The notes beneath the pieces are model-generated. The model had not been told where the DNA came from and ran no database searches. It was given only the letters and a program-made list of their open reading frames with translations. Both the position numbers and the translations under genes were made by a program. 64,000 nt of DNA from Lutjanus erythropterus (Eukaryota > Chordata > Actinopteri > Lutjaniformes > Lutjanidae): the NCBI GenBank assembly GCA_020091685.1, contig CM034594.1, forward strand, positions 5,640,903 through 5,704,902. Reading direction: 5' to 3'. Below are positions 8,401-56,202 of this stretch, piece after piece; position 1 is the first letter of the stretch, and every line of letters begins with the position of its first letter.

Positions 8401-11400
8401 CACTACATAATGTACTCTATAATATATAACGTAGACACACATAGTATACATTGTGAATAGGTTGCTGATGTATCTTTTAAATGCCCACATTTGCATCAAT
8501 GTTGCACTAAAGCAGAATGTCAATGTCAGTGCCTATTTGCAGTAATAATACTGTGCAGCATTGCATTTTAAAAGTAAATTTAAACTGGTAATTTTCTTCA
8601 TACTGACATATAACCACTAGTAGTGAGTTTTAGGATTCTTATTACAGATCACAGGCTTGAATGGAGCATTAGAGTTTAAGGGCTTTTTAGACTTGTTGCA
8701 GACCAGCTCCTGTGGCTCATATCCTGTCACTTTGAAGCTCCACTCATCCCTTTGAGTGCCTTGATGTAATGTCGATTCTGCCTGGACTCAGGCGTTCAGA
8801 TTTGTGAACCCCACTGCTTTTAAGTGAAGTGTCTGCAGATCTCACCATTGTGAGCTGCAGGAAACATGAAAGCAGGGACCACTGGCAGGAAATGCTGAAA
8901 CTGAAGCAATCAAAATAATTTTTTTAAAGGGCCACTTTATCTGTGTTTTTTTCCCAGGCTTTCCAAAAAGATACTCCCTGTCAGCCGTTAGAGTGCCAAT
9001 GCATGTCAGTGCCTCTCCCTACCCCTGGGGGGTTTATATGTAGCAATGTCATGATGCAGAAACCTGTATCAGGTCATGTGGGGGAAACGTTTTTAAAAGG
9101 ACTTGAGACAATAGAATAGAATTAATAGAATTTGACACTAAAAGAGACAGAGGCTCGCTTTGACGAGAATTTTTTTTCCACGTTTGAATACAGATGTACA
9201 CTACTGGAAAGCTACAGAATGATATGAAACCTTCAAAAAGTAATTAAATGGACACATTTTAAGCTCCAGCAGCCCATTATTAAAATATTTCTAACAATGG
9301 ACTGAAGCTTGTAGAGCTGTGGAGAGACAACAAGTTTGTTAGAAGTGTCTATCATTTCAAACACATATTATCACAGCCTTAGTTTTGTATAGTAAATAGA
9401 CTGAATTGTGTATAGTGCCTTTACCCAAAGCATTTTACAATGCACCAGTTCAGTGTAGTGTTCAGTGACATGTTTTAAGGACACTTCAACATGTACACTC
9501 CATTGCATTCCAGCAATTTAGTATGTACCCCCCATAACTTTGGGGAGACAGATTACAGGATTAGAAACTGAAGCAGTTTAGGCTGATATATCCTGACCTT
9601 TACACTTGAATTTGGGTTACGCTCCAAAAACACTGCACATTTTTTTCATGCTTTATACAGACTTTCTTTGCTGTTGAAGTATTAACTCAAAGATTTTCAT
9701 GACCATGGGGAATTTGTTCAATCCAACCAACGTGACCACCCAACTTGAGGTAACTGGTGATTTCCATGTCCACCGACTCCAAGACCTTGTGCTTCCTTCT
9801 GTGTCAAATGCAAAAAAAAAGTCACCTTCAGATTCTCCTCCAGTAACAGATCTTGCAGTAGCTCGTCAGCAGAGAGAGCACTGGACTCTGCAGCATCTTT
9901 TAACAGTAACAGATTACTAAATAACAGTAACAGTAACTGAATAACTGAGTTCTTAAATTGCAAAATTAATGCGTTAGACAAACAAGTAATCCAAGTAATC
10001 TAAGGTGTTACTACTCTAACACACTGTTTATGAGGGTTATTTTTTCAGTCTTTTGAAAACTCCTTCCAGTGCTACAGAAGATATTATACAACTGTATTAA
10101 CCAGCTGAGTAGTTCTCCTCCTGACAGTAAAAGTAATTTAATAAAATCGTGGTGCCCCTTTAATGGTCAACCCACTCTACCTCCTGAGGCTCAGCTACCT
10201 TGAAGTGTGACGACAGCAAGTTGTTAACATGAACTACACAATTACTGTGACATCTATGTACAGTATCCATTACAACTCATTTGTTATCTGTGCCTGCATG
10301 GCAGAAATTGTTGCCTAATCTGAAGCTTCCTTCAGGGTCTGAACTTGGTACATTTTTTGTATCCAGTCCAGGACTGTCACCTCAGTGTGTTTGTTCTGGT
10401 ATGAAGGGAGCTTTAAAAAGTCAGCAGCTCAGGGAAGATTTGGCTTCCTTTAAAAGCAAATCAGTGAAATCTTGAATTAACAAGCAACCAGTGCAGGAAG
10501 TTGAGAATTGCAGTGATATGATCTCTACATTTGGCAACAAATAAAAGCCCCATGAAAGCACCCTGGATAAGATAAAAGGTGGTTGAAGTAAATGGGAAGG
10601 GAAATGACCTCCAAGTAAAGAGTAGGAGTGGTTACATTTTAGGACAGATTTTGAGACTGAAGTCAAAGAGCAACCCTTCATTGTTACACTACAACTTCAA
10701 GCCAAACTAAGTTTTCCATTTTATTGTAGAAAGTTTTCCAGGAGTCACATTGACAAAAAACACAACAAAACTACACACACAAAAGAAAAAAGCAGTTTCT
10801 GATGGAACATGCTGTCTGAAGTCTTTTATTCGCCCTGTGCTTATCTCCACAGCTACTCGTGATGAGTCACTCTGTGTGATTGCCAATCCGGCCTTTGTGG
10901 TCTACTCTTCCATCGTGTCCTTCTATGTTCCCTTCATCATCACGCTGCTGGTTTATGTGCAAATTTATGTGGTCCTGAGGAAGCGCAGAAAACGTGTTAA
11001 CACAAAGCCAAAGCAGCGTGTGTGTCAGGCTGCTGACCCTGATGTGGCCACTTCACTGAAGGTGAGCTTCTGTGGCAATAAGGCCACCATTTACACTTTT
11101 ATGACTTCATTATGAAACCAAGATTGATTTAAACCTTTATTATCCCAGAGGTCTGTACTGTCTGAACATTTTAGAATGATGGCTTTTTTTCTCTGTGCAT
11201 GGATGATTCAAGCAAAAAGGATGATACAAACTAATGAAAGATCTGTGTAAAAGTCTGAGGTTGCAGCCCACTAAATCCATGAAAAAAAAATCATAGACCA
11301 TCTTTGTGTTCCATTTTTAAAAATGGATGATATAGTACCGTACACTTTTCTTTAAACTTTATTGCCATTTTCACACAATAAAAGGCAAAATCACCTCACT

Positions 11401-27199: not shown

Positions 27200-28461
27200 T
27201 CCTACTGGTAGGAAGTCATCCACATGTTGAAGACCCCTCTGACAGAGGGTTCCACCAGACGTTCCCAACAGACCCTCACAATATGTTTGGGCCTGCCATG
27301 TCTGTCCAGCTTCCTCCTCTGCCAGCAGATCCAACTCACCACCAGGTGGTGATCAGTTGACAGCTCAGCCCCTCTCTTCACCCGAGTGTCCAAGGCATAC
27401 GGCTAAAGTTCAGATGACATGACCACAAAGTCGATCATTGACCTCCGACCAAGGGCATCCCTGTGCCATGTGCACTGATGGACACCCTTATGCTTGAACA
27501 TGGTGTTTGTTATGGACAAACTATGACTAGAACAGAAGTCCAATAACAGAACACCACTCGGGTTCCCAATCACGCCCCTCCAGGTAACACTGTCACCATA
27601 CACGTGGCATTGACCTCCCCCAGTAGAACGATGGAGTCCCCATTCGGAGCACTTTCCAGCACTCCTCCCAAAGTCTCCAAGAAACCCGGGTACTCTGCAC
27701 TGCCGTTCGGCCCATAGGCCGAAACAACAGTGAGGCACCTATCCTCGACCCAAAGGTGCAGGGCGGCGACCCTCTCGTTCACCAGGGAAAACTCCAACAC
27801 ATGGCAGCTGAGCTGGGGGGCTATAAGCAAGCCCACACCAGCCTGCCGCCTCTCACTGTGGGCAACTCCAGAGTAGAAAAGAGTCCAGAGTTGGGTTCCA
27901 GAGCCCAGACTGTGCATGGAGGTGAGCCCAACTATCTCTAGCCGGTACAGCTCAACCTCCCACACTAGCTCAGGCTCCTTCCCCCCCAGCGAGGTGACAT
28001 TCCATGTCCCCACAGTTAGATTCCATGTCCTGGGGTTGGGTCATTGGAGCCCCCGCCCACAACTGCTACCGAACCGAACCAAACTATACTGCATCAGCCC
28101 CTTCTGAACCCTCCCACGGGTGATGGGCCTATTTGAAGGTGGGCCCATGTCGCTCATTCGGGCTGGGTCCAGCCAGGTCCTGTGGGCGAAGACCTGGCCA
28201 CCAGGCACTTGCCTGCTAGCCCCAAACCCTGGCCTGGCTCCAGGGTGGGGCCCCAGTAACACCAATCCGGGCAATGCAGATCCCTCTTGTTAGGCCATTC
28301 ACTGGGGGCACTGGAACTGCTCTTAGTCTGACCCGTTACCTAGGACCTGTTTGCCTTGGGAGACTCTACCAGGGGCAATAAGCCCCTGACAACATAGCTT
28401 CCAAGATCATTCAGGCTCTCAAACCCCTCCACCACGATAAGGTGGTGGTGCTGGAGGAAAA
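27200..28461 (-). mobile_element. Non-LTR retrotransposon fragment: 5' region and APE endonuclease
   Basis: On the - strand a GC-rich 5' region (about 28,461-28,020) leads into an endonuclease reading frame starting GTWNVTSL (27,570-28,013). That frame continues [20 protein letters not shown] and IVLLGEVNA, where active copies usually have GDFNA. The rest is in other frames: [15 protein letters not shown] (27,403-27,738) and AELSTDHHLVVSW (27,202-27,393), the latter carrying the terminal SDHH-type motif. So at least two frame changes break it. It stops just after the endonuclease, and no reverse transcriptase follows. RTE/Rex3-like is my best guess for the clade, with moderate doubt. Confidence 0.85.
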
Positions 28462-43158: not shown

Positions 43159-44191
43159 CTACTCCTCCAATAGTTTCACTATTTCCCATTTTTCACACCT
43201 CTGGGCCACATCCAGAGCTGTGGCTCCAGAAGAGTCCAGCAGAGTCCTGTCTGCTCCATTGAGCAGCAGAGCCTTTACAATAGGCAGAGAGCCGTGCTGG
43301 GCAGCCAGGTGTAAAGGTGACGCCTTCCCTGAGTTTACTGCATTCACATCAGCATGATGTGATATTAAGTGGAGGACACTTGGGAAACTGACACTGGTAC
43401 AGGCGACATGTAATGGCATCCATCCTTCACTGTCCTCTGACACATTAGGGTCGGCGTTGGCTGCCAGGAGCGTCGCCACCACTTCTGACTCACTCTGGTG
43501 GCAGGCCAGGTGGAGTGGAGTCCATCCATTCTCACCTGTAGCGTTCACACAACCACCCTGACTCTCCAGCTGGGCCACCGTGGTTTCATGGCCCCTCAGA
43601 GCAGCCAGGTGCATGGGGGTCCAGCCTTGGAGGGTTCTGGAGTCTGGGCTGGCCTTGTTTGACAACAACTGCCTGCATATGCCTGTGTGACCCTTCAGGG
43701 CAGCCAGGTGGAGTGGAGTATATCCTCTGCTGTCTGCACCATCAGTGTCCACCCCGCTCTTCAGCAGCTGTCTCACTACTCTGTTATGGCCTTCTTCAGC
43801 TGATAAATGAAGAGCTGTAGAGAGGCAGAAGTCCGTAGCGCTGGGATCTGCTCCGTGGGAGAGGAGGAGCTTGGCAATATTCAGATGTCCGTAGGCGGAG
43901 GCGAGGTGGAGTGGCGTCCTCCCCTGTGCCTCCCGTTCACTCACTGCTTCCTCTGACAGCCGTGAAAGCAGCAGGCGCACCACTGTTTCATGTCCATTCT
44001 GGCAGGACAGGTGGAGGGGCATCCAACCGGCTTTTTCCCGGGCATCCACCACTGCTCCTTTGTCCAATAGGAGACGGACATCCCTGTCATCGCCGCTCTG
44101 AGCGGCAAAATGGAGCGCTGTCCACTGGTCCTCATCTCCCTGGTTGGCATCTGCTCCATGTTCCAGCAACAAAGAGATGATATCATGAAGC
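43159..44191 (-). CDS. ankk1: ankk1 exon 9: ankyrin repeat array and stop
   Basis: 1,033 nt including TAG at 43,161-43,159. About ten ankyrin units in a row, with signatures such as QWTALHFAAQSGDD, GRTPLHLASAYGH, GYTPLHLAALKGH, GWTPMHLAALRGH and GWMPLHVAC. It ends in KLLEE, without the short tail present in human ANKK1. Acceptor tttttccccgacag. GC-richer than its surroundings. Confidence 0.97.
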
Positions 44192-47100
44192 CTGTCGGGG
44201 AAAAAAAGGAAAATTCACTCAAGTCTTAATACAGCTAAGATAACTCTTCTGGCTTTAAGCCTTATATTTAGCATACAAACATGAGTGATATCGTCTCGTA
44301 TAACTGTCTTTTATTGGGTTTCACCAACAAAGATTTAATTGATCTAAGATTAGTTCTAATCAGAGTTAAGCAGAGCTCTGTTGTACAATTAAAACCTAAT
44401 CTCAGTTTAATAAACTGAAGTTTAGTGATGTAAACCAAAATTAAATTGAGTTTAATTAATATGGACATGGACAATATGGACAACCATTAACTTTTGGCAG
44501 CTCTGTATTCCTTGAAAAACTGCACTGTTTGGTAGCTGGCTAAAAAAAATTAAGAAAATTGTACATTGCTTACTAGCAATTGTTAGCTAAGATGGTAACG
44601 AAATGTTATTGTTTCTAAGCTAATGTTAGCTAAAATGTTACTCTGATCGCTTACTAACATTAGCTAAAAAGTAAAAAACAAACAAAGTTACATTGTTTGC
44701 TAGATGGCTAAAAAGTAACAAAATGTTATTGTTTGCAAGCATATGTTAGCTAGCAAAAACGTTATTTAACCCAGATAACTTATTCATGATCGCTCAGCAG
44801 AGAAGCTTTAATTTTTCCTTCCTTAGAAAAGATGTATATATACTTGTTGGCTGAATTAATGGAGCAACTTCATTATTTAGTTCATTCCATCTTAAAAAGG
44901 CAGCCATTTTAAAAGTTTAAATCGCCTGAAGTGTTAGTTTAAAGTTAAACTGGATTATATTTTAATTTGGAGTGCAACAGTTTTAAATTAAAGATTTAAT
45001 TAAATTTAATCTGGATTTAGAGAAAATTGTGATCTAAATTAAACCATCATTTAATCAGGTTTAAATATTAATCCTGGTTAGTGCAACCCAGCCACTTGTA
45101 AAACAAAAGTTTGTTGACATATTTTTATACCAACCTGTGTAGAACAGCAATAATAAGTGGAGTGTAACCCCTGGCAGTCGTACAGTTGACGTCAGCACCC
45201 AGATTCAGGACGTGCTCGACACTCTCTGCATCCCTGCTGGCTACAGTGTAGTGGAGGAGGCTCCTTTTACCTGAATACTGTGTGTAGATGTGCTCTTTTC
45301 TCACAGACTGTCTGAAACTACCAAAGTCCTTTTTGGACAGCAGAAAGAGGACACTGTCCTTGTCATGTGGTTGTTCTGTGAAAGGAAAGCAAAAAGCATT
45401 ATATGAGAAAAGTGCTGCAGAGATTGTAATTGCAGTGAGTCACAGGGATCTTTATTTTTTATGAATTTTGCTGTATTAAAGTTGAGTCTCCTCATTTCAT
45501 TGTGCACAGCAGTGTGCTTGTGCACATAATAGCAGAGGGTGAAGCTTTCTGGAGGCTGTGAAGCTCAGTCAGTATGTAAAATGTTTAGCTTGTGCATTAC
45601 TGTTTGAAGAAATGTACCTATACACATTCATGTTTTAATATGGAGTGACACTGAAAGGTCAATTCAATTAAAAGTATTGTGAATTAGCTATTTAACAAAC
45701 TAGTGAACATCTAAAAGAAAGTGTCCAAGGCTATATGACTGTTTCTTTTATTGTCTTCCACTGAAAGTTGACTCTGCTTTTCAGTCCTAAAGGTAATATT
45801 AAAAATGTGACAGGACTGTAAATAGCACTTTTTAAATGTCAGCCCTCCAGTCTTTGTGCTGCATTGTACATGATTTTTTATCCCTCTCTAGCCATGTGTT
45901 TACCTGAGGGAAGGTCAGGCATCTCAGGCAAAGCAATCTAAAATGGAAAAGAAAGAAAGGAAATACTACAGAAGTTATTAGCTGTGACATCAATCATCAG
46001 AAGTGGTTAATAAGCACATATATCAAACTGTGAGCATGTGTGTTCAAAGGTAGGAATGGCTCAACATTTAAACAGCTGCGGTGTAAGTGGATACATCATA
46101 TGCCCTATCTGCACAAAATATTTTAATGTATTTTTGTACTTTCCTCTTTCAGCCACAGTAGCAACTAAAATGTCATGACATTTGGTACAAATATCTATGG
46201 TGTCACAAGGATGAATTCTAATAACTGTGGTAATCTCTTGTTTATCCCTCCTCTTGTTATCTTTTTTGTCTCCTTATTAACTTCTTGTTGTTTACTTAAT
46301 ATCTTGCATTTTTATTAATGTTTCTGTTATTGCACCACCCCCCTTTGCTGTTGCAACACTGCAGATTTCTCAGTTGTGGAATTAATAATATATTATTTTA
46401 CTTTGTCTTAATCCCATGACGTTTCTTCTAGTGTAAATCAGGAAAACATTCTCATCAGCCCCAGGTGTACATTGCTAAGGTAGATTAGCAAATACTAGCA
46501 TGCTAATATGCTAAAATACGAGGGTGAACATAACTGTTATACCTGCTACACAAAAGCATTTTAGTATTGTCACTGTGAGTATGTTAGCATGCAAATATTA
46601 GCAATTACCTTAAAGTGGCTATAATATCAAATGTCAAGTGGCATATGAGATGATTATAGTGATGAATTTACAGAGTATTAACCCCTGAATCTGCAACTCC
46701 ACTTGACTTAATAGAGATTTACACTTTCACTACAGTTTCAGCTCATTGTTTAGCTGTCCATCTTGCAACATTAGTATTTTCATACTACTCCAACATATCA
46801 TAGCATAGTTTTTGGCCACAGCAGGCAGCTGTTTTCAGCTAAAACTCTCTGAAACCCACTGTACACCACCTACTCAGCATCACACAGCACACATACCCAG
46901 TTAGCAACTATATAGTGAACATAATTGAGCATTTAGTAGCTAAAAAGCCAAATATTTTCCTTTGGAGGTGCTAGAGACCAAAAACAAAGCTAAAACAGAA
47001 TGAATATTAGACTTACATTCATTGGACGTCCAGAAATGTAACTCTAAATTTATTATATACATATATACATTCATAACTGTCGAATGTGTTAACAGAAAAC

Positions 47101-50100
47101 TGTTTGTTACCAAGTGCATCATGTCAATTTAAAAGGTGATGACACTGTATGTTAATGTTGTCTGCACAACTCTGCTTGCAGGCTTAAAGGTCCAGTGTGT
47201 AGCATTTACAGGGATTTATTGACAAAATATAGCAGAAATGGAATATAATATTTATGTTTTCATTAGTGTATAAACATCTGAAAATAAGAATCATTGTGTC
47301 TTTGTTACCGTAGAATTAGTTGTTTATATCTACAGAGGGTGGGGGTCCTCTTCCATGGAGGCCACCATGTTTCTAGCAGCCAAAGGTTCTTCCACATGTT
47401 TGGAAAGGGAGGGTGAGGTGACGTGCAATCCGCAAGCTCACTGCTAGATGCCACTAAATCCTGCACACTGGTCCTTCAAAGCAACACAGTGTCTAAATCA
47501 TAGGTGTCATTTATGCTAGGAAGGCTGGGAACATGAATCACTTTTTTAAATGACTGATTTTGTCCTCATCACTTTTTAAAAGCATAATTTGTTTAGAAAA
47601 AATCCTGAAAACAAGCTTGCATCAAGAAATTGCATAAGGTTTTCATATATATTGAGGTCATTGTGTTTTATTTGCTGGATTATAAGGTACATAGTAAGAC
47701 ACTGACTTACATGCTGCAGTGCTGCTTACTAAAGTAGTTCCTGAAATCTACTGATGTGGATGTGATGGATGACTGATGGTTGGTCGATGTTGTTTTGGGT
47801 TATTGAGTTTTGTCATATTGTCTACTCTGTACTTGCTTTTGATGTGCTTTTGATACACCATGATGCATTTTTTTTCCAACTCTTAATTATCTACTCTGAG
47901 CTCATAACAATTCTCCAATTACATTGCCTAAAATCACGTGTTGAAGACCATTTAAAATTGATTTTTTCAGCTGGGCTGTTATGTCCCCACCACCTTTCAA
48001 CACAACGTAACACCCTTGGTGTAAACACATCCTCACAGAGCCACCAGTCTGATTTTGTTGTTGTTGTGTTTTTGTAGTGTGACTGAGCTGCTCATTATGC
48101 CAAAGGTGTAGCAGATACTGTAGATATTACAGTACCATTCAAGCAGAGTATGAAGCAGAACTAACCTTGTGTATCGGGGAAACCAGCCAAGGATAATTTG
48201 ATTTCTGTTCGTCGTCATGGTATTTATGACATTGGATTGGACCTGGGATCTTCAGGACTTCACTGAGAGCCTCTGTTTTCCTCACCGTGTCTGGAAACAA
48301 AACAGCATTCATGGACAGAAATGCTCTGCATTTGCCTAATCAAACAAATGTATTCCTACACTCAAACCCAGTGTGAGCCTCTAATAATTGCATGACTACA
48401 GAGAATGAAGAGTCATGCATGAATGGTAAATTCTTTCATAGATTCCGTCACACAAGTGAGCTTTTTGGAACAAAAACTCACACAAATTTGAATGGCTGCT
48501 GTGTATGAATAAACATGACACACATTTGTATTCATTAACATGACTTTTCAAGCCACGAGTGCTTGTTAAACAAAGGTGACCCAGTTCCTCTGGTGTAAAT
48601 GTTTCACTCAAACATGTAGTCGACTTTGCTCTCTGAGAATGTGACAACTGTTCACTTGATGACTGCAAACATGGCCGAACAGGACAATGTTTTTTAGTTG
48701 AGTTTTTTTATTATCATTATTATTATTATTATTATTTTTAGAGAATGTGGATCAAATGAGCAACGAGTCTCAATAATGCCTTTTAATGGCAGCAGATTAA
48801 AACACTGATGTTTCAACAGGATGTCAGTGTGTCTGTTTTTAATCATCTGGCACTTGTTCATTCTTTAGTGAGCAAAAGCCCATATGTTGCATATTGATAC
48901 TGTGTTTTTATCATATAATTGCTTCCATGTGTGCGTGTGTGCATGCATGTGTGAGAGAGAGATCCCTGGGGCTACAGCTTGTCCACAGCTCATCACAACT
49001 CTTGAAAAACCTCTTTAAGAATTGTATGCCTTTATGTTTTAATGGCCGGAGACATTATGTTTTCAGGTCATCACATTCTTGTGAAGGTGATATCTCTAGT
49101 ATGCCTTGATCTTCAAACTTTGCACAAATGAGAACTTGGACTGAAGGATGACCTGATTAAATTTTGGTAATCAAATGTAAAAATAGTCTCTAAGTGAAGA
49201 CTGCATGTTTCTTACTGGAAGTTTTTCAGTGGAATCATACATGTATAGTGAGAACTTGCAAGTGATCAACAACTGCTGCAGTTTTAAATCTTGCTTCAGA
49301 CAACCACAATCTATGTTGGGGTCATGTTATTGTTGGCAAAACTTTGCAAATCTTAGCTGGTTGCATTTATGGTGTCATTGCAGTAGGTGCTTCACCATCT
49401 GTTGCTGGTGGGGATCTGCACTCTACTAAGTGCAGTCTTCTAGTTTTGCTTGAAACACCTTTTTCCTTGAGTGCAATGTTTGTTAATAAAACAAAAAAAT
49501 GTCACTTAATATTGACATTCTCATTAAGGAAATATTAATATTGTTACTGATTATCTTGGCATCATTTCACACTGAGACACTTAATGAGACACTACAGTTA
49601 TGAAAGCAATTAAACCCAACATCATACAAAAGTAACAAATGGTACATCATCTGTCTACGGATGTAGCATAGATGTTATACTTTATATCATCTTTTCCCAA
49701 ATGTATTCCATTACATCTTGAGGGCAGACTGGTGATATAATAATCATACCAGTCTTTGTACAAATAAGACATAAAAAGTCTGGTATGTCATTTTCATAGG
49801 ACACAGGAGAAATATAATCCCTTGAGCAGAGAGAATTTTAAATTGTATTCACAGTGGGTCATGTGTGCAAGATTTTGAGTAAGTGTAGCCCTCCTCTGTG
49901 GCATGACTTGTTTAATCTCATCAACTATAAGAGATAGTACTGTTCTTCTTCATCGCAGTGCCTTTGGGAAATCAGATTTTTCTGTTAAAGCACCAACTCA
50001 GTACCTTTGGGTTTCCAGTCGATGACATAAAGAGCTGCAGCGCCACTGAGATCCAAATTAAAAAGTGGGCTGACAGTTCAGCTCTGATGTGTGTGTGTTT

Positions 50101-51439
50101 GTGTTTTCTTTTTCACTCCTGTACCTGAGAACTGAGGCCTCTTCCTGTGGTCCTGATCCCAGCACTGCTTCATGATGCTGATCATCTGATCGCACTCATG
50201 GGGCTTCTGATCAGGTATCAGTTCCACACCTGGTCTCTTCCCATGCGATACCTGTAACAGCACTGTGGTCACGCTGCACCCTGCAGGTCCACAAAACACA
50301 CGTCAGACACAAGATTCAGTGATCAGTGCATGCAGAGAGTGACCACAAATATAAAAACACCATGTTTACCCACACACCATGTTAAATATTTTCATAAGTT
50401 ATGTCTTTTACACTTTGCATTTTGTTCTCAATAAACAAACAAGACATAACATGTTACTTAGTGAGTTTGAGAGGTTTTGGAAGGCAGATTCTGTTGAATT
50501 TTGATGGAGCCAAGTTAGTTGTTTACCTTTGTCTCCCTCTAGTCTTTATGCTAAGCTAATGTGCCCTGGTTTTAGCTTCAAGTGTAATGAATAGACATGA
50601 CAGTGGTATCATTGCCATTGCCTATTAGCTTACAGTTATGTTTCAGTAAATCACACAAAATATTAGGGCTAAGCTGAGGTTTAGGTTTAGATTGCTTGGG
50701 CTTGGACTTGACAGGGTTGAGGTTAAGTTCACATAAAAAGTTAGTAAAAAGAAAAAGTCATCCAGTGATTGGCTGGTTCTTCACATTGTGTGTTTTTAGG
50801 ATTAATGCAGCAGACTCATTGAATTTCTTGCAGTCTGACCTAAAACTGAATACTCTTAAATTTCTTGGGCACTTTAAGAATGTACTCGATAATCAGCCAT
50901 TACCTGCCTGTTACTGTTTTAAATGCTTTTGTTTGTTGATTTGTGTGGTTGTTTTTTCCCATGGTAACTATTTTAACCAGTTCTGCTCATTGTATTTGCA
51001 TATTACATGCATTTTACATGGTGTAATCTCAGCACCCTTGTAAATGAGGTTCACCCTCAATGATTTCTTGCTAGGGTGTTTCTGGAGGGGGGACATGGGC
51101 GGGCACTGGTCACCCCTGAAAACTAATTTTCCGCCCAAAGTACCACCCCATTATCCTCAAATCTGTCCAGTTAGAGGTGGGAACTTTTTTTTCAACCAGT
51201 TGTTTGATGAGTTGTTTTAAATGTGCATTGTTTTCTTTTGTATGTAGCCTATGTTAATTTTGCCTTCTTAAAAAATTCAAATTATATAAATAATAAATTT
51301 TAAAATTATTGGAGTGTGGAGGATGAATGTAGGAGTCTCATAGCCTTAGTATAGTATAAGTATAGTATATACAAAGGAGGTACAATTTCCTTTTAAGGAC
51401 TGTAAGATGCTGTAATGCTAGTAATTAAAGTACGAATGT

Positions 51440-51504
<65 letters not shown>

Positions 51505-54500
51505 ATGTCACCCCTACATAAACCAGTGCCCCTCTTGCCGCCGCCTTGTCAAAATAAAGGACTGTTAAAAAATAACCCATGACTTCATCAGTACCGTGAA
51601 TTAATTTGAAACTGACAGTAAGTTTCTGCCTGTTATTGTGGCCTCTTCACCTGTGTACCTGTCAGAATTTACATTACCAGATGTTTTGGGGGAAAAGTGT
51701 TTTTCTCACTTTTTGTGCTATGAACTTTATGTACTTCGACATTTGGGACAGCTAAGGCTGTTTGTTTAATGTGATTAAGTTCACTGTTCAACAATAAAGA
51801 TGATCTGGAGTGCTGTTGCATTTTTTATTATAAGAAGACACTGAGATGAAAAATGACTTTATCTGCAGCTTATGGTGTTTAAGTGATTGTGATGAGTGTT
51901 ACACTACTTCTTACTGAAATCTATTTGATATGAAGATGTGGTGCATTTCAAATTAAATCAGTCCTACCTGCATACGGTTTCTGTTGTGTCAGAATCTCCC
52001 AAATCACAATTCCAAAGCTGTAAATGATCAAAGCATAGAGAGGCACTTCAGTTATCATTTTTTTATTTTCTCATATCATGCATTCATTGAACTCTGTGGC
52101 ACTCTCACTTTTATATAACAGACACTGAAAAATGATGCTGTTCTTTTTGTTCTATGAAAAAACATAATGCCTTTTTATATACAAAACAAAACCAGTGGGT
52201 AAGAAAAAGAGTGTCAGACAGGAGTAAAATATATAAAATATGTCCCAGTTACTTGTTATGGAGGAAAAATATATACAATAGAGGGAAAGGTTGCATTGTG
52301 AATTGTGGATTGTGCACTGGGTCAGAAAAAAAGTGGTGACTCTGGTGGTGCAATTTAAAAAATGCCTGAAGCAAGTCACCTGTAAACATCAAAGGTAGTT
52401 CCTGGAGGATCAGGGCACTGAGTGAAGGTCTCTGGAGGAATGTAACTTATGTTCCCCCTTGCTGTCAGATTCTCCATGAACAGTTTCTTGCTCATGCCCT
52501 CCTCCCAGCTGATTAAACCAAAATCTGAAATCTTGGTGGAAAAAACAATAGTAGTACAGTATTACAACTGTAGAAACCATTGCTCTGTAGATGTCAAAAG
52601 ATCGCTGTACAGGCTCATGCATTTTTTTCACTGACCTTGACATGGAGATGATCGTCCAGTAGGATGTTTGACGTCTTGAGGTTAAGATGGAGTAGTGGTG
52701 GATTCATGCTGTGGAGGAAATTCATGCCCATGGAGGCCTCATGAATCATCTGGAACTTCTTTGGCCACATCAGCGTGTGACTGGCGAGGAGATTGTTCAA
52801 CGATCCATTACTCATGTACTCCATCACCAAGGCTGTTGCTTCGCTGCACAGTCCGTAGATGGACACAATGTACTTGAATTTCACTTTGGCTATGTTGGAA
52901 GCCTCATCCATTATTCTCCTGTGGAAAAAATAATGGCCAGTGAAGGAGTGCTGGGTATTAAAAAAGTATTTTGAACTTTGACCACTGAAAACCACAAGAT
53001 CAATATTAAAGTGATGGTTCAGATTATTTGAAGTGGAGTTGTATGAGGTTCTTATTGATAGTATGTGTATTACCTACAGTAGAGGGCAGTTGACATACAT
53101 CCAGTGTAGAGAAACAATACCTGCATGGAAGTTAAATAATGTACTGCTGTGGACAGAGTCAGCAACAAAACATATTTTAACCACTTAAAAAAAAGGTCCA
53201 TCAAAAAAAAAAATAATAATAAAAAAATCTGTTTGAAAAATCATTTGTGCATGCTATATTTAGAATATTTTCACTGGTTTATCTTGCTGTCAAACAGCCT
53301 TTTCCTTCGGGAAACAGCTGTTACATAAGCCAAATATCACTCTCTCCAAACTAAGCAAACTCTCTGGATGAAATCAGTAATTTTATCTTGAAGAACACAG
53401 AGTTGCCGTGGTCTACTGCCGGCTTGATCTGTAAGTTTGTTTGTGTTATTGTGTGACTTCTGTGTTTTTTAAAGGTTAGTTTGAATTCACCAAAGTCACA
53501 CAATAACACAAACAAACTTACAGCAGCAACCAGCAACTCCTGTGTTTTGTGAGGTAAAGCTACTGTTTTCACCAGTGGAGTTTGGTTGGTGTGGAGAGCC
53601 ACATAATACAGGTTTCCGGGTGGAAAAAGCTGTCTAATGTTTAAGCAGTGGAAATATTGTAAATATGGTGTCCATATCTTCAACAGATGCTGATTTTAGT
53701 TGGGCCTTTTCCCTCTAGACATCATCGCGCCCCAGAATGCCCGCTCTATATTTCACTATAGTGTCTTAGCTTTGTGCTGTAGGTACTTTGTCATCAATAA
53801 CCACAACCAGAAATGCACATTGCAACACTGAGATCTGATTTTTATTGGTTTTGGGGTTGTTCTTTTTTGGGGGGGACATTTTCCCGGGGGAAAGCGTGAT
53901 GAAGAGTCACTGGGCAAATGGGCAGGTTGTGAATTTTCTCTTCTTTTTTTTTTGTAATTTTTCATAAATTAAGCTATACCTACAACACTATTGTGGAAAA
54001 CAATAACAATACTGCAATTTTAAGTTTGAAATGACATCACATAATCACCATCAGTAAACAGTGGGACTTAGTTAGTCCTTACCTCAGGAGATGGAGCCTG
54101 TTTTCCAGGAGGGAGTGCAGAAGTGAGAACCGACTGGTCTCAGTTCTTCCACATATAAATTCAGTATTTTCTCATATAAGTTGCCAAAACCACTACCTAC
54201 TGCCCTATTACTGTTGTTTGTTCTAATAACATAGCTGTGTTTTTAAGTGAGGATTCACAGTGAAATGCAGCAACTTTCTCTTCATTAATTCAACCGCAAC
54301 ATGACTACAGTATGTTTTGTTGTCAACCCCGTCCACAGCAATTCATTCCTTAGCTTCCATGCTGGTGCTCTGCTTCTCCAAACTAAAGGCGAGCCATGTG
54401 CCATTCACAGTAGGTCATACACTGACCCACTGACTGACATCAATAAGTACCTCATACAGCCCCACTTCAAAATAATCCAAACTTTCCCTTCAATTCAACA

Positions 54501-54792
54501 TAAACTCTGCTAATATGCAAAGAAACTGGAGTCAAATCAGACAGTTGCTCATATCTGACAGCAGGATAAAAGGCAATTTGTGTTAGTTTTCATAATTTAA
54601 GCCCCACCTGTAAAAGTTGTTTGCACACACGGCTGTGTCAAAACTTTTTGCGGCACATTTTTCCCTCCAGACCTTGAGCTTGACCTGGTACACCTGACCA
54701 AATCTGCATTCTGCCACCTTAATCCAATCCGCCTCAAAGTCATCCTTCTTGAAGTTCCTGAACTGCCCGGGGGATCCGTCAAGCCGATCCAT
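43159..54792 (-). CDS. ankk1: Ankyrin repeat and kinase domain containing 1, complete nine-exon gene
   Basis: Exons in transcript order: 54792-54608, 52918-52636, 52531-52380, 52017-51968, 50280-50125, 48290-48166, 45937-45904, 45375-45135, 44191-43159. All have GT-AG borders and matching phases, giving 752 codons plus TAG (human ANKK1 is 765). N-terminal RIPK-type kinase domain: DDFEADW start, CRFGQVYQV loop, AAK lysine, IVSIYG strand, LVMEYMSNGSL hinge, LLHLNLKTSNILL catalytic loop, ISDFGL, YIPPE activation-loop end, CWDQDHRKRP. A linker and about 12 ankyrin repeats follow to the C-terminus (GWTPLHLA-type units). The HRD-type aspartate is Asn and the glycine loop is degenerate, so catalysis is doubtful. 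I chose the ATG at 54792-54790, shortly before the conserved FKKDDFEADW start. A tiny upstream ORF (ATG TGT AGG ATT AGG CAG TGA) lies just 5'. The function in fish is unknown; RIPK-like signalling is family inference. Confidence 0.96.
44192..45134. repeat. ankk1 intron 8 with GTTAGC-rich repeat
   Basis: Between about 44,530 and 44,770, motifs of the type aatgttagctaa, agctaatgttagct and aaaatgtta recur four to five times, a degenerate tandem array. The rest is AT-rich with several ttaattta runs. Confidence 0.6.
45135..45375 (-). CDS. ankk1: ankk1 exon 8: linker end and first ankyrin repeats
   Basis: 241 nt. Reads QPHDKDSVLFLLSKKDFG, then GKRSLLHYTVASRDAESV, LNLGADVNCTTARGYTPL and AVLH. This matches the start of the human ankyrin array (TPLHFLVAQGSVEQV). 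Acceptor cctttcacag, donor gttggt. Confidence 0.95.
45904..45937 (-). CDS. ankk1: ankk1 exon 7: 34-nt microexon in the linker
   Basis: 34 nt, reading IALPEMPDLPS plus one base. Acceptor cttttccattttag, donor gtaaac. It is needed to join phase-0 exon 6 to exon 8, which opens with two bases of a split codon. No similarity evidence, but both splice sites are strong and the phase is exact. Confidence 0.75.
45938..48165. other. ankk1 intron 6 (2.2 kb) with two repeats
   Basis: Contains a GCTAA/TTAGCATGC-rich repeat at about 46,480-46,610 and MITE family Q at 47,184-47,479. No additional exon is needed for the frame. Confidence 0.75.
47184..47479. mobile_element. MITE family Q, most complete copy
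   Basis: Inverted ends: taaaggtccagtgtgtag then catttac at the left, and aaatcctgcacactggtcct then tcaa at the right. About 296 bp. Interior motif ctacagagggtgggggtcct. The same family occurs at 35,701 and probably 56,294. Confidence 0.75.
48166..48290 (-). CDS. ankk1: ankk1 exon 6: kinase end and linker
   Basis: 125 nt. Reads DTVRKTEALSEVLKIPG, then a poorly conserved hydrophilic linker ending SPIHK in phase 0. Acceptor tgtttccag, donor gttagt. The assignment rests on phase fit between neighbours more than on similarity. Confidence 0.85.
48291..50124. other. ankk1 intron 5, no named repeat except (TTA)n
   Basis: 1.8 kb intron. A (TTA)n tract lies at about 48,708-48,739. The T-rich end leads to the exon 6 acceptor. 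Confidence 0.75.
48708..48739. repeat. (TTA)n microsatellite
   Basis: About nine TTA/ATT units, one interrupted by TCA. Confidence 0.85.
50125..50280 (-). CDS. ankk1: ankk1 exon 5: kinase C-lobe end
   Basis: 156 nt. Reads CSVTTVLLQVSHGKRPG, then ISIMKQCWDQDHRKRPQF, the conserved kinase subdomain XI. Acceptor gacctgcag, donor gtacag. Confidence 0.95.
51085..51160. repeat. Dispersed repeat, second copy
   Basis: Shares the cactggtcacccctgaaa and accaccccattatcctcaa blocks with 1,735-1,815. Confidence 0.55.
51437..51500. repeat. (TG)n microsatellite, long
   Basis: About 30 TG units with one TATG interruption near the start. The longest simple repeat in the window, in ankk1 intron 4. Confidence 0.95.
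51968..52017 (-). CDS. ankk1: ankk1 exon 4: kinase F helix
   Basis: 50 nt. With flanking split codons it reads SFGIVIWEILTQQKPYAG, matching human SFAIVIWELLTQKKPYSG. Acceptor catttacag, donor gtagga. Confidence 0.95.
52380..52531 (-). CDS. ankk1: ankk1 exon 3: DFG and activation loop
   Basis: 152 nt. Reads ISDFGLISWEEGMSKK, then LTARGNISYIPPETF and GTTFDVY plus two bases. Intact DFG and PPE. Acceptor ccaccaag, donor gtgact. Confidence 0.95.
52636..52918 (-). CDS. ankk1: ankk1 exon 2: N-lobe helix to catalytic loop
   Basis: 283 nt. The split Arg codon is followed by RIMDEASNIAKVKFKYIV, then VMEYMSNGSLNNLLASHT, LLHLNLKTSNILLDD and HVK. Acceptor ttttttccacag, donor gtcagt. The catalytic-loop Asn codon is AAC, on the complement of gttaag near 52,680. 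Confidence 0.96.
53007..54492. mobile_element. Palindromic MITE family P, copy B, in ankk1 intron 1
   Basis: Inverted ends: taaagtgatggttcagatta then tttgaagtgg, against ccacttcaaaataatccaaa. The centre carries perfect 29-bp inverted arms at 53,431-53,459 and 53,493-53,521 with a 33-nt loop. About 1.5 kb, longer than copy A, with extra unshared sequence near 53,700-54,100. No transposase. Confidence 0.75.
54608..54792 (-). CDS. ankk1: ankk1 exon 1: start and kinase N-lobe
   Basis: 185 nt from ATG, reading MDRLDGSPGQFRNFKKDD and on through CAAKSF to NNFY plus two bases. Donor gtgggg. The glycine loop reads ECRFGQV, where human has SGGFSQV, so the first loop glycines are missing. Confidence 0.9.
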
Positions 54793-55428: not shown

Positions 55429-56202
55429 CAGTGTTGGGAATAACGCCGTTATAAATAACGCCGTTACGTAATGGCGTTATTTTTTCACTAACGGGGTAAT
55501 CTAACTAATTATTTTTTTCCGCCGTTACAACGCCGTTACCGTTACTGACGGTCAAAAGCGGTGCGTTACTTACTCTGAATAAATTGAAGAAACTACCAGC
55601 CGTAGCGAGTCTACTCTGCTCTGTTTATTTGTCATCCAAGACTTGGGGTGCGTTCAGGTTCGAGAATAGCGCACGTACTTCTTATGACTCCAGGCTGTTT
55701 GTCCCTGCTCATTCAATTAGACAATGCTTTCCAAAGCTTGCTAACGTTTCTGTGTTTGCTACACCTGAATGCTAGCCTCGTTCCCATCCCCCACTGTCAG
55801 CCAGCAAGAATGCTGCTTCCATCTTGAAGACGGCAGACGCTTTGAGGCTGACAGGAGGAGGAGGGGGACGAGGCTTACCTGAATGCACCCCCTGAATAGA
55901 TGCGATAGAAGTGATTGTAATTGGCTGAGGGTTAGAGTCATGTGTCATGGTAAGCCAATCAGAGCCGGTGTTTTCACACACAAACCGGAACAGCGCGTGC
56001 GGCAAACACACACGCAAAACAGATGCAGAGGGATATCTTTGACATACAACAACTTCTTTTTAAAGTAACGGAAATAGTTACTTTCCCTGGTAACTAGTTA
56101 CTTTTACTATAGAGTAATTCAGTTACTAACTCAGTTACTTTTTGGAAGAAGTAGTGAGTAAGTATAACTAATTACTTTTTTAAAGTAACGTGCCCAACAC
56201 TG
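55429..56202. mobile_element. hAT-type non-autonomous element, intact ends
   Basis: 774 bp starting cagtgttgggaataacgccg and ending taacgtgcccaacactg. An exact 8-bp target duplication, atgaaagc, lies at 55,421-55,428 and 56,203-56,210. Subterminal regions are rich in cgttac / gtaac repeats, typical of this fish hAT group. No transposase ORF. The perfect target duplication suggests a fairly recent insertion. Confidence 0.93.

Follow-up and report, generated by a model that had tools for sequence, protein, structure and literature searches.

Does a fish ANKK1 in which asparagine stands in place of the catalytic aspartate still act as a protein kinase, or has the gene been kept for some other purpose? 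ANKK1 harbours TaqIA, a variant that has drawn much work on the genetics of addiction, and the biochemical function of the gene is unsettled. We addressed the question in a window of 64,000 nucleotides of the Lutjanus erythropterus genome (the whole stretch of DNA analysed, part of a contig of 47 Mb; source assembly of 938 Mb in 444 contigs), comparing the locus with related kinases of the same genome, with solved structures and with published work on RIP kinases and pseudokinases.

An intact ANKK1 gene beside DRD2

The window holds a complete ANKK1 (RIPK5) gene on the minus strand (54792-43159), with nine coding exons, all on that strand, and introns that are all of the GT-AG type. Exon 1 (54608..54792; donor GTGGGGCT) encodes the start methionine, the glycine loop and the beta-3 lysine; exon 2 (52636..52918; acceptor TTCCACAG, donor GTCAGTGA) extends from the alpha-C helix to the catalytic loop; and exon 3 (52380..52531) carries the DFG motif and the activation segment with its PPE. 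Exon 4 (SFGIVIWEILTQQKPYAG; 51968..52017) is followed by exon 5 (50125..50280), which encodes the end of the kinase C-lobe, exon 6 (48166..48290), with the kinase end and part of the linker, and exon 7 (45904..45937), a linker exon of 34 nt and the least certain of the set. Exon 8 (45135..45375) includes further linker and the first ankyrin repeats, and exon 9 (43159..44191) the remaining repeats and the stop codon. The model comprises 2259 coding bases and 752 residues without internal stop or frameshift, and a pseudogene was rejected on the strength of this intact reading frame.

In Pfam searches the protein showed a single kinase domain at residues 25-279 (PF07714, E 3.1e-46), with ankyrin repeats across the C-terminal half; PF00069 and PF07714 both cover nearly the whole kinase domain. 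The best relative of that domain among solved structures is the RIPK4 chain 5wni (E 3.4e-68). The protein thus starts with a RIP-type kinase domain and ends in ankyrin repeats, the layout also described for human ANKK1 (PMC9573974). An open frame on the plus strand (10711..11112) matches the D(2) dopamine receptor (E 3.9e-23) and marks an exon of DRD2; since ANKK1 ends at 43159 on the minus strand, the two genes face each other tail to tail. We take human ANKK1 and DRD2 to be arranged tail to tail as well. The NCAM1-TTC12-ANKK1-DRD2 cluster has been described as conserved in vertebrates (PMC7177674). The gene is an intact fish orthologue of ANKK1 and is presumably expressed.

Other features were seen around the locus. 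Upstream of ankk1 exon 1, an element of about 774 bp (55429-56202) has ends CAGTGTTGGG and CCCAACACTG and is flanked by 8-bp direct repeats (ATGAAAGC); it resembles a non-autonomous hAT-type transposon. Intron 1 of ankk1 contains a MITE-like inverted repeat (53429-53523; arms of 36 nt, 94 percent complementary, 23 nt spacing). Two overlapping frames on the minus strand at 27406-28040, one of which was searched without a Pfam match, resemble the LINE-type endonuclease region of fish retroelements. Outside the window, 8 to 14 kb beyond its right end, two long minus-strand open frames rich in Ser/Thr and Glu/Lys, one of 673 codons (L016 7978-9996) and one of 1343 (L017 2-4030), meet where these neighbouring loci join and are perhaps parts of one frame of about 2000 codons.

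Asparagine at the catalytic position

The catalytic loop of the fish protein, PPLLHLNLKTSNILL, reads HLNLKTSNILL. In the gene model and the alignment, Asn141 (codon AAC, 52681..52683, minus strand) takes the place of the catalytic aspartate and aligns with Asp145 of human ANKK1 in a provisional human sequence. The initial annotation had reported this loop and codon within 52660-52700, and both are real in the assembly, in an open exon of an intact gene. Its further statement that human ANKK1 has aspartate here agrees with that alignment and with the construct name D145N (PMC12119088). The minus strand at 52675-52701, CCACCACTACTCCATCTTAACCTCAAG, translates to PPLLHLNLK, and a degenerate pattern for PPLLHL(D/N)LK had a single match in the window and none in 100 shuffles, on which a reading-frame artefact behind Asn141 was rejected.

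One base decides the residue, a single G-to-A transition from GAC being enough to give AAC, so an assembly or base-calling error at this position has to be considered. The frame is clean, contigs of 28 to 47 Mb are among those seen in the assembly, and the site is neither in a homopolymer nor, because the preceding base is T, a CpG; we regard such an error as very improbable.

The aspartate of the HRD-type motif, expected in an active RIP kinase, is replaced in the fish protein. A kinase domain is classified as a pseudokinase by sequence if at least one of the beta-3 Lys, the HRD Asp and the DFG Asp is missing (PMC4718504), and since the HRD Asp is missing, the fish ANKK1 domain is a pseudokinase by this definition. 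The same exchange has been used experimentally: the human kinase mutants of an eLife study were RIPK1 D138N, RIPK2 D146N, RIPK3 D142N, RIPK4 D143N and RIPK5 D145N (PMC12119088), and RIPK1 D138N is termed kinase-dead in a review (PMC10492769). The predicted fish protein naturally bears the substitution that was engineered as a kinase mutant in the human RIPKs.

Other kinase motifs

Most other elements of the nucleotide site are in place. The beta-3 lysine (Lys49 in CAAK, 54646..54648, aligned with human Lys51), the alpha-C glutamate (Glu67 in MDEAS, 52903..52905), the metal-binding asparagine of the catalytic loop (Asn146, 52666..52668) and the DFG motif (residues 159-161, 52517..52525) are kept, all encoded on the minus strand, and Lys143 of the catalytic loop and the PPE are likewise present. 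The beta-3 Lys, alpha-C Glu and DFG Asp of an active RIP kinase are thus all found, and the presence of the lysine and of DFG in the gene model bears out what had been annotated. With Lys, Glu, the catalytic-loop Asn and DFG retained, nucleotide binding by fish ANKK1 would therefore be possible.

The glycine loop is degraded. It reads AECRFG (residues 27-32; 54697..54714, minus strand) where RIPK4 of the same fish has GSGGFG, and it departs from the GxGxxG of an active RIP kinase. The corresponding loop of the provisional human sequence is ASGGFS, itself off the consensus; relative to it the fish loop is without the central glycine and with the third. Part of the degradation is therefore not peculiar to this fish, and the earlier description of a reduced loop stands for AECRFG itself, but only in part as a trait that sets the fish apart from human ANKK1.

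RIP kinases elsewhere in the same genome

A search of the source assembly with the kinase segment gave at least 18 matches, three of which are exons of this ANKK1 gene. Aspartate occupies the column in six of the six other kinase loci that were read, nine weaker matches being left out: HLDLKPANILL in a RIPK4-like locus, HHDLKTQNILL in a RIPK2-like locus, HLDLKPSNVLL and HHDLKPSNVLL in two further RIPK-like loci, and HLDIKPANVLL and HRDIKTSNVLL in two distant kinases, with names assigned by similarity. No second ankk1 copy was seen among the at least 18 matches in the 938 Mb assembly, in which one ankk1 locus was found. A second copy retaining the aspartate was considered and rejected: all six of the other loci read have Asp, but the nine weaker matches stand outside this count.

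The RIPK4-like locus lies on a contig (C11) separate from that of ANKK1, keeps GSGGFG and LAIK, and has ankyrin-like matches after it. It aligns with the RIPK4 chain 5wni in five segments, with identities of 84, 78, 68, 68 and 56 percent. ANKK1 is distinct from this RIPK4, a separation based on locus and similarity rather than on a tree. Two PDB chains, 5wni (RIPK4) and 5ng2 (RIPK2), show Asn at the same column. We take 5wni to be mouse RIPK4 carrying an engineered D143N, and the asparagine of 5ng2 to be engineered likewise. These asparagines were not accepted as natural occurrences, because Asp is present in the three other RIPK2 chains listed, and because D143N and D146N are known as engineered mutants (PMC12119088).

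Conservation of the kinase domain

Identity between fish ANKK1 and human ANKK1 (provisional sequence) is 128/260 in the kinase domain, 16/83 in the linker and 181/379 in the ankyrin part. As the kinase and ankyrin parts are equally conserved, the former does not appear to decay faster than the latter. Zebrafish and human ANKK1 are 41.9 percent identical in a published table (PMC9573974), and such divergence is therefore not peculiar to this fish. Within the kinase domain, the N-lobe is less similar to the provisional human sequence (29/78) than the C-lobe (94/181; Fisher p 0.03, marginal and one of three contrasts tested). The other two contrasts showed no significant difference, neither for human ANKK1 against the RIPK4 chain (N-lobe 36/74, C-lobe 91/181, p 0.89) nor for fish ANKK1 against RIPK4 (28/77 and 80/180, p 0.27); against RIPK2, the fish values are 20/66 and 70/180. 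These figures give a weak hint that constraint on the nucleotide site of fish ANKK1 may be relaxed. Because its kinase domain matches human ANKK1 at 128/260 positions, compared with 56-84 percent for the RIPK4 segments against 5wni, the comparison also suggests that ANKK1 may be evolving faster than RIPK4 in this fish.

Asn141 might on these grounds be a recent, unfixed change, that is, a loss-of-function allele of the individual or the species or a first step of decay under relaxed constraint with no new role. A single transition would suffice for it, ANKK1 seems the faster-evolving gene, and RIPK5 is reported to have been lost in several vertebrate lineages. Against it stand 2259 coding bases without a stop, a frameshift or a broken splice site, and the equal conservation of the kinase and ankyrin parts next to a diverged linker, which argue that the kinase domain is not simply rotting. 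We consider a recent change of this kind improbable.

Comparison with known kinases and pseudokinases

Human ANKK1 (RIPK5, SgK288) shares with the fish protein the kinase-ankyrin layout, the position in the DRD2 cluster and the conserved Lys, Glu and DFG, and differs from it in Asp145 and in the central glycine of the glycine loop (provisional human sequence). RIPK4, the closest relative with a solved kinase domain (5wni), has the same domain order, whereas the fish's own RIPK4 has kept both GSGGFG and HLDLK.

Outside the family, HER3/ERBB3 is a near parallel in its active site, with Asn for the catalytic Asp and with Asn171 and DFG kept. It binds ATP at about 1 uM, one metal being held by the equivalents of Asn171 and DFG, and shows trans-autophosphorylation in vitro (PMC4718504). 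HER3 differs from fish ANKK1 in belonging to the receptor tyrosine kinases and in having no alpha-C Glu, a residue still present in the fish protein. Asparagine at this position is not always lethal to catalysis, low activity having been reported for both HER3 and JAK2 JH2. Fish ANKK1 might accordingly be viewed as a slow but working kinase in which Asn141 is tolerated and Lys49, Glu67, Asn146 and DFG permit low but useful phosphotransfer; the nearly complete matches to PF00069 and PF07714 are consistent with this view. The choice of Asp-to-Asn as the kinase mutation in all five human RIPKs (PMC12119088) speaks against it, as does a glycine loop that is also without its central glycine, and we think a slow kinase unlikely.

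PSKH2, a primate pseudokinase, is of the HRN type that is predicted for fish ANKK1; unlike the latter it is CAMK-related, and ankyrin repeats are not mentioned for it in the source passages available. PSKH2 orthologues with Asp are reported to be just as inactive as the Asn-bearing ones, and restoring the Asp failed to activate human PSKH2; activity thus need not depend on this one residue. Within the RIP kinases, feline RIPK3 offers another case in which a single vertebrate lineage has a catalytic residue mutated: the cat protein is reported still to activate NF-kB but not cell death. It differs from fish ANKK1 in having a RHIM and no ankyrin repeats.

As for ANKK1 itself, experiments in human cells led to the proposal that it is a Wnt/PCP scaffold with FARP1 and WGEF as interaction partners, and its overexpression shrank the wound area, an effect left unchanged by p.Lys51Arg, which is expected to affect kinase activity (PMC11477271). 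NF-kB is activated by RIPK1-4 but not by human RIPK5 (PMC12119088). In zebrafish, a loss-of-function insertion in ankk1 changed drd2 expression, behaviour and drug responses (PMC8861280); the gene therefore matters in fish.

Homologue and literature searches

When the exon 2 peptide was searched against prokaryote genome contigs, no animal homologue was found, the five loci returned being 27-30 percent identical and all from bacterial genome bins; among viral contigs, a protein scan found no relative and a scan with the DNA pattern gave 0 matches. The string HLNLKTSN was not found in open-licence papers, and none of the open-licence papers containing HLNLK or HLDLK concerned RIP kinases, judging by titles and the opening of abstracts. 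In the open-licence passages on ANKK1 and pseudokinases we found no use of the term pseudokinase for ANKK1; one apparent match, set aside on the excerpt available, referred to a Legionella protein of similar name. Autophosphorylation of ANKK1 was likewise not shown in the open-licence passages checked, and the sole match in the open-licence literature for a teleost pseudokinase with reference to the catalytic aspartate concerned titin. The initial annotation had presented a pseudokinase scaffold as a new view of this gene in fish. With a scaffold role for human ANKK1 already published (PMC11477271), that claim is overstated: it may hold for the pseudokinase label, which the open-licence passages did not apply to ANKK1, and not for the scaffold. 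The result is partly new, in that a known RIP kinase occurs here in HRN form, joined to a scaffold idea that is already in print.

A putative pseudokinase scaffold

With a probability of roughly two in three, we read fish ANKK1 as an HRN-type pseudokinase with ankyrin repeats, of very poor or no phosphotransfer, which may bind ATP and would act as a scaffold. The kinase domain would keep its fold, the Lys-Glu pair of the nucleotide site and both metal-binding residues; as Asn replaces the catalytic base and the glycine loop is weakened, phosphate transfer would be very poor or absent; ATP might still bind with one metal, in the manner of HER3; and the protein would act through its conformation and its ankyrin repeats. 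We infer expression, inactivity, ATP binding, the scaffold role and the standing of Asn141 as a settled feature of the lineage. In view of ATP binding by HER3, the scaffold proposed for human ANKK1, the failure of RIPK5 to activate NF-kB and the zebrafish phenotype, a catalytically weak or dead scaffold that may still bind ATP appears to be the most economical explanation.

A wider version of this scaffold reading, in which a whole clade of fishes has turned ANKK1 into a maintained pseudokinase scaffold beside DRD2 and the conserved function needs no catalysis, is put forward tentatively, at somewhat less than even odds. If the change is clade-wide, these fishes would offer a naturally kinase-dead version of a gene that has long been linked with dopamine phenotypes. 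If a lineage has kept the gene yet lost the catalytic base, the function shared by ANKK1 proteins is likely to be kinase-independent; natural orthologues with Asp and with Asn would then make the scaffold hypothesis testable, and caution would be advisable in treating ANKK1 simply as a kinase.
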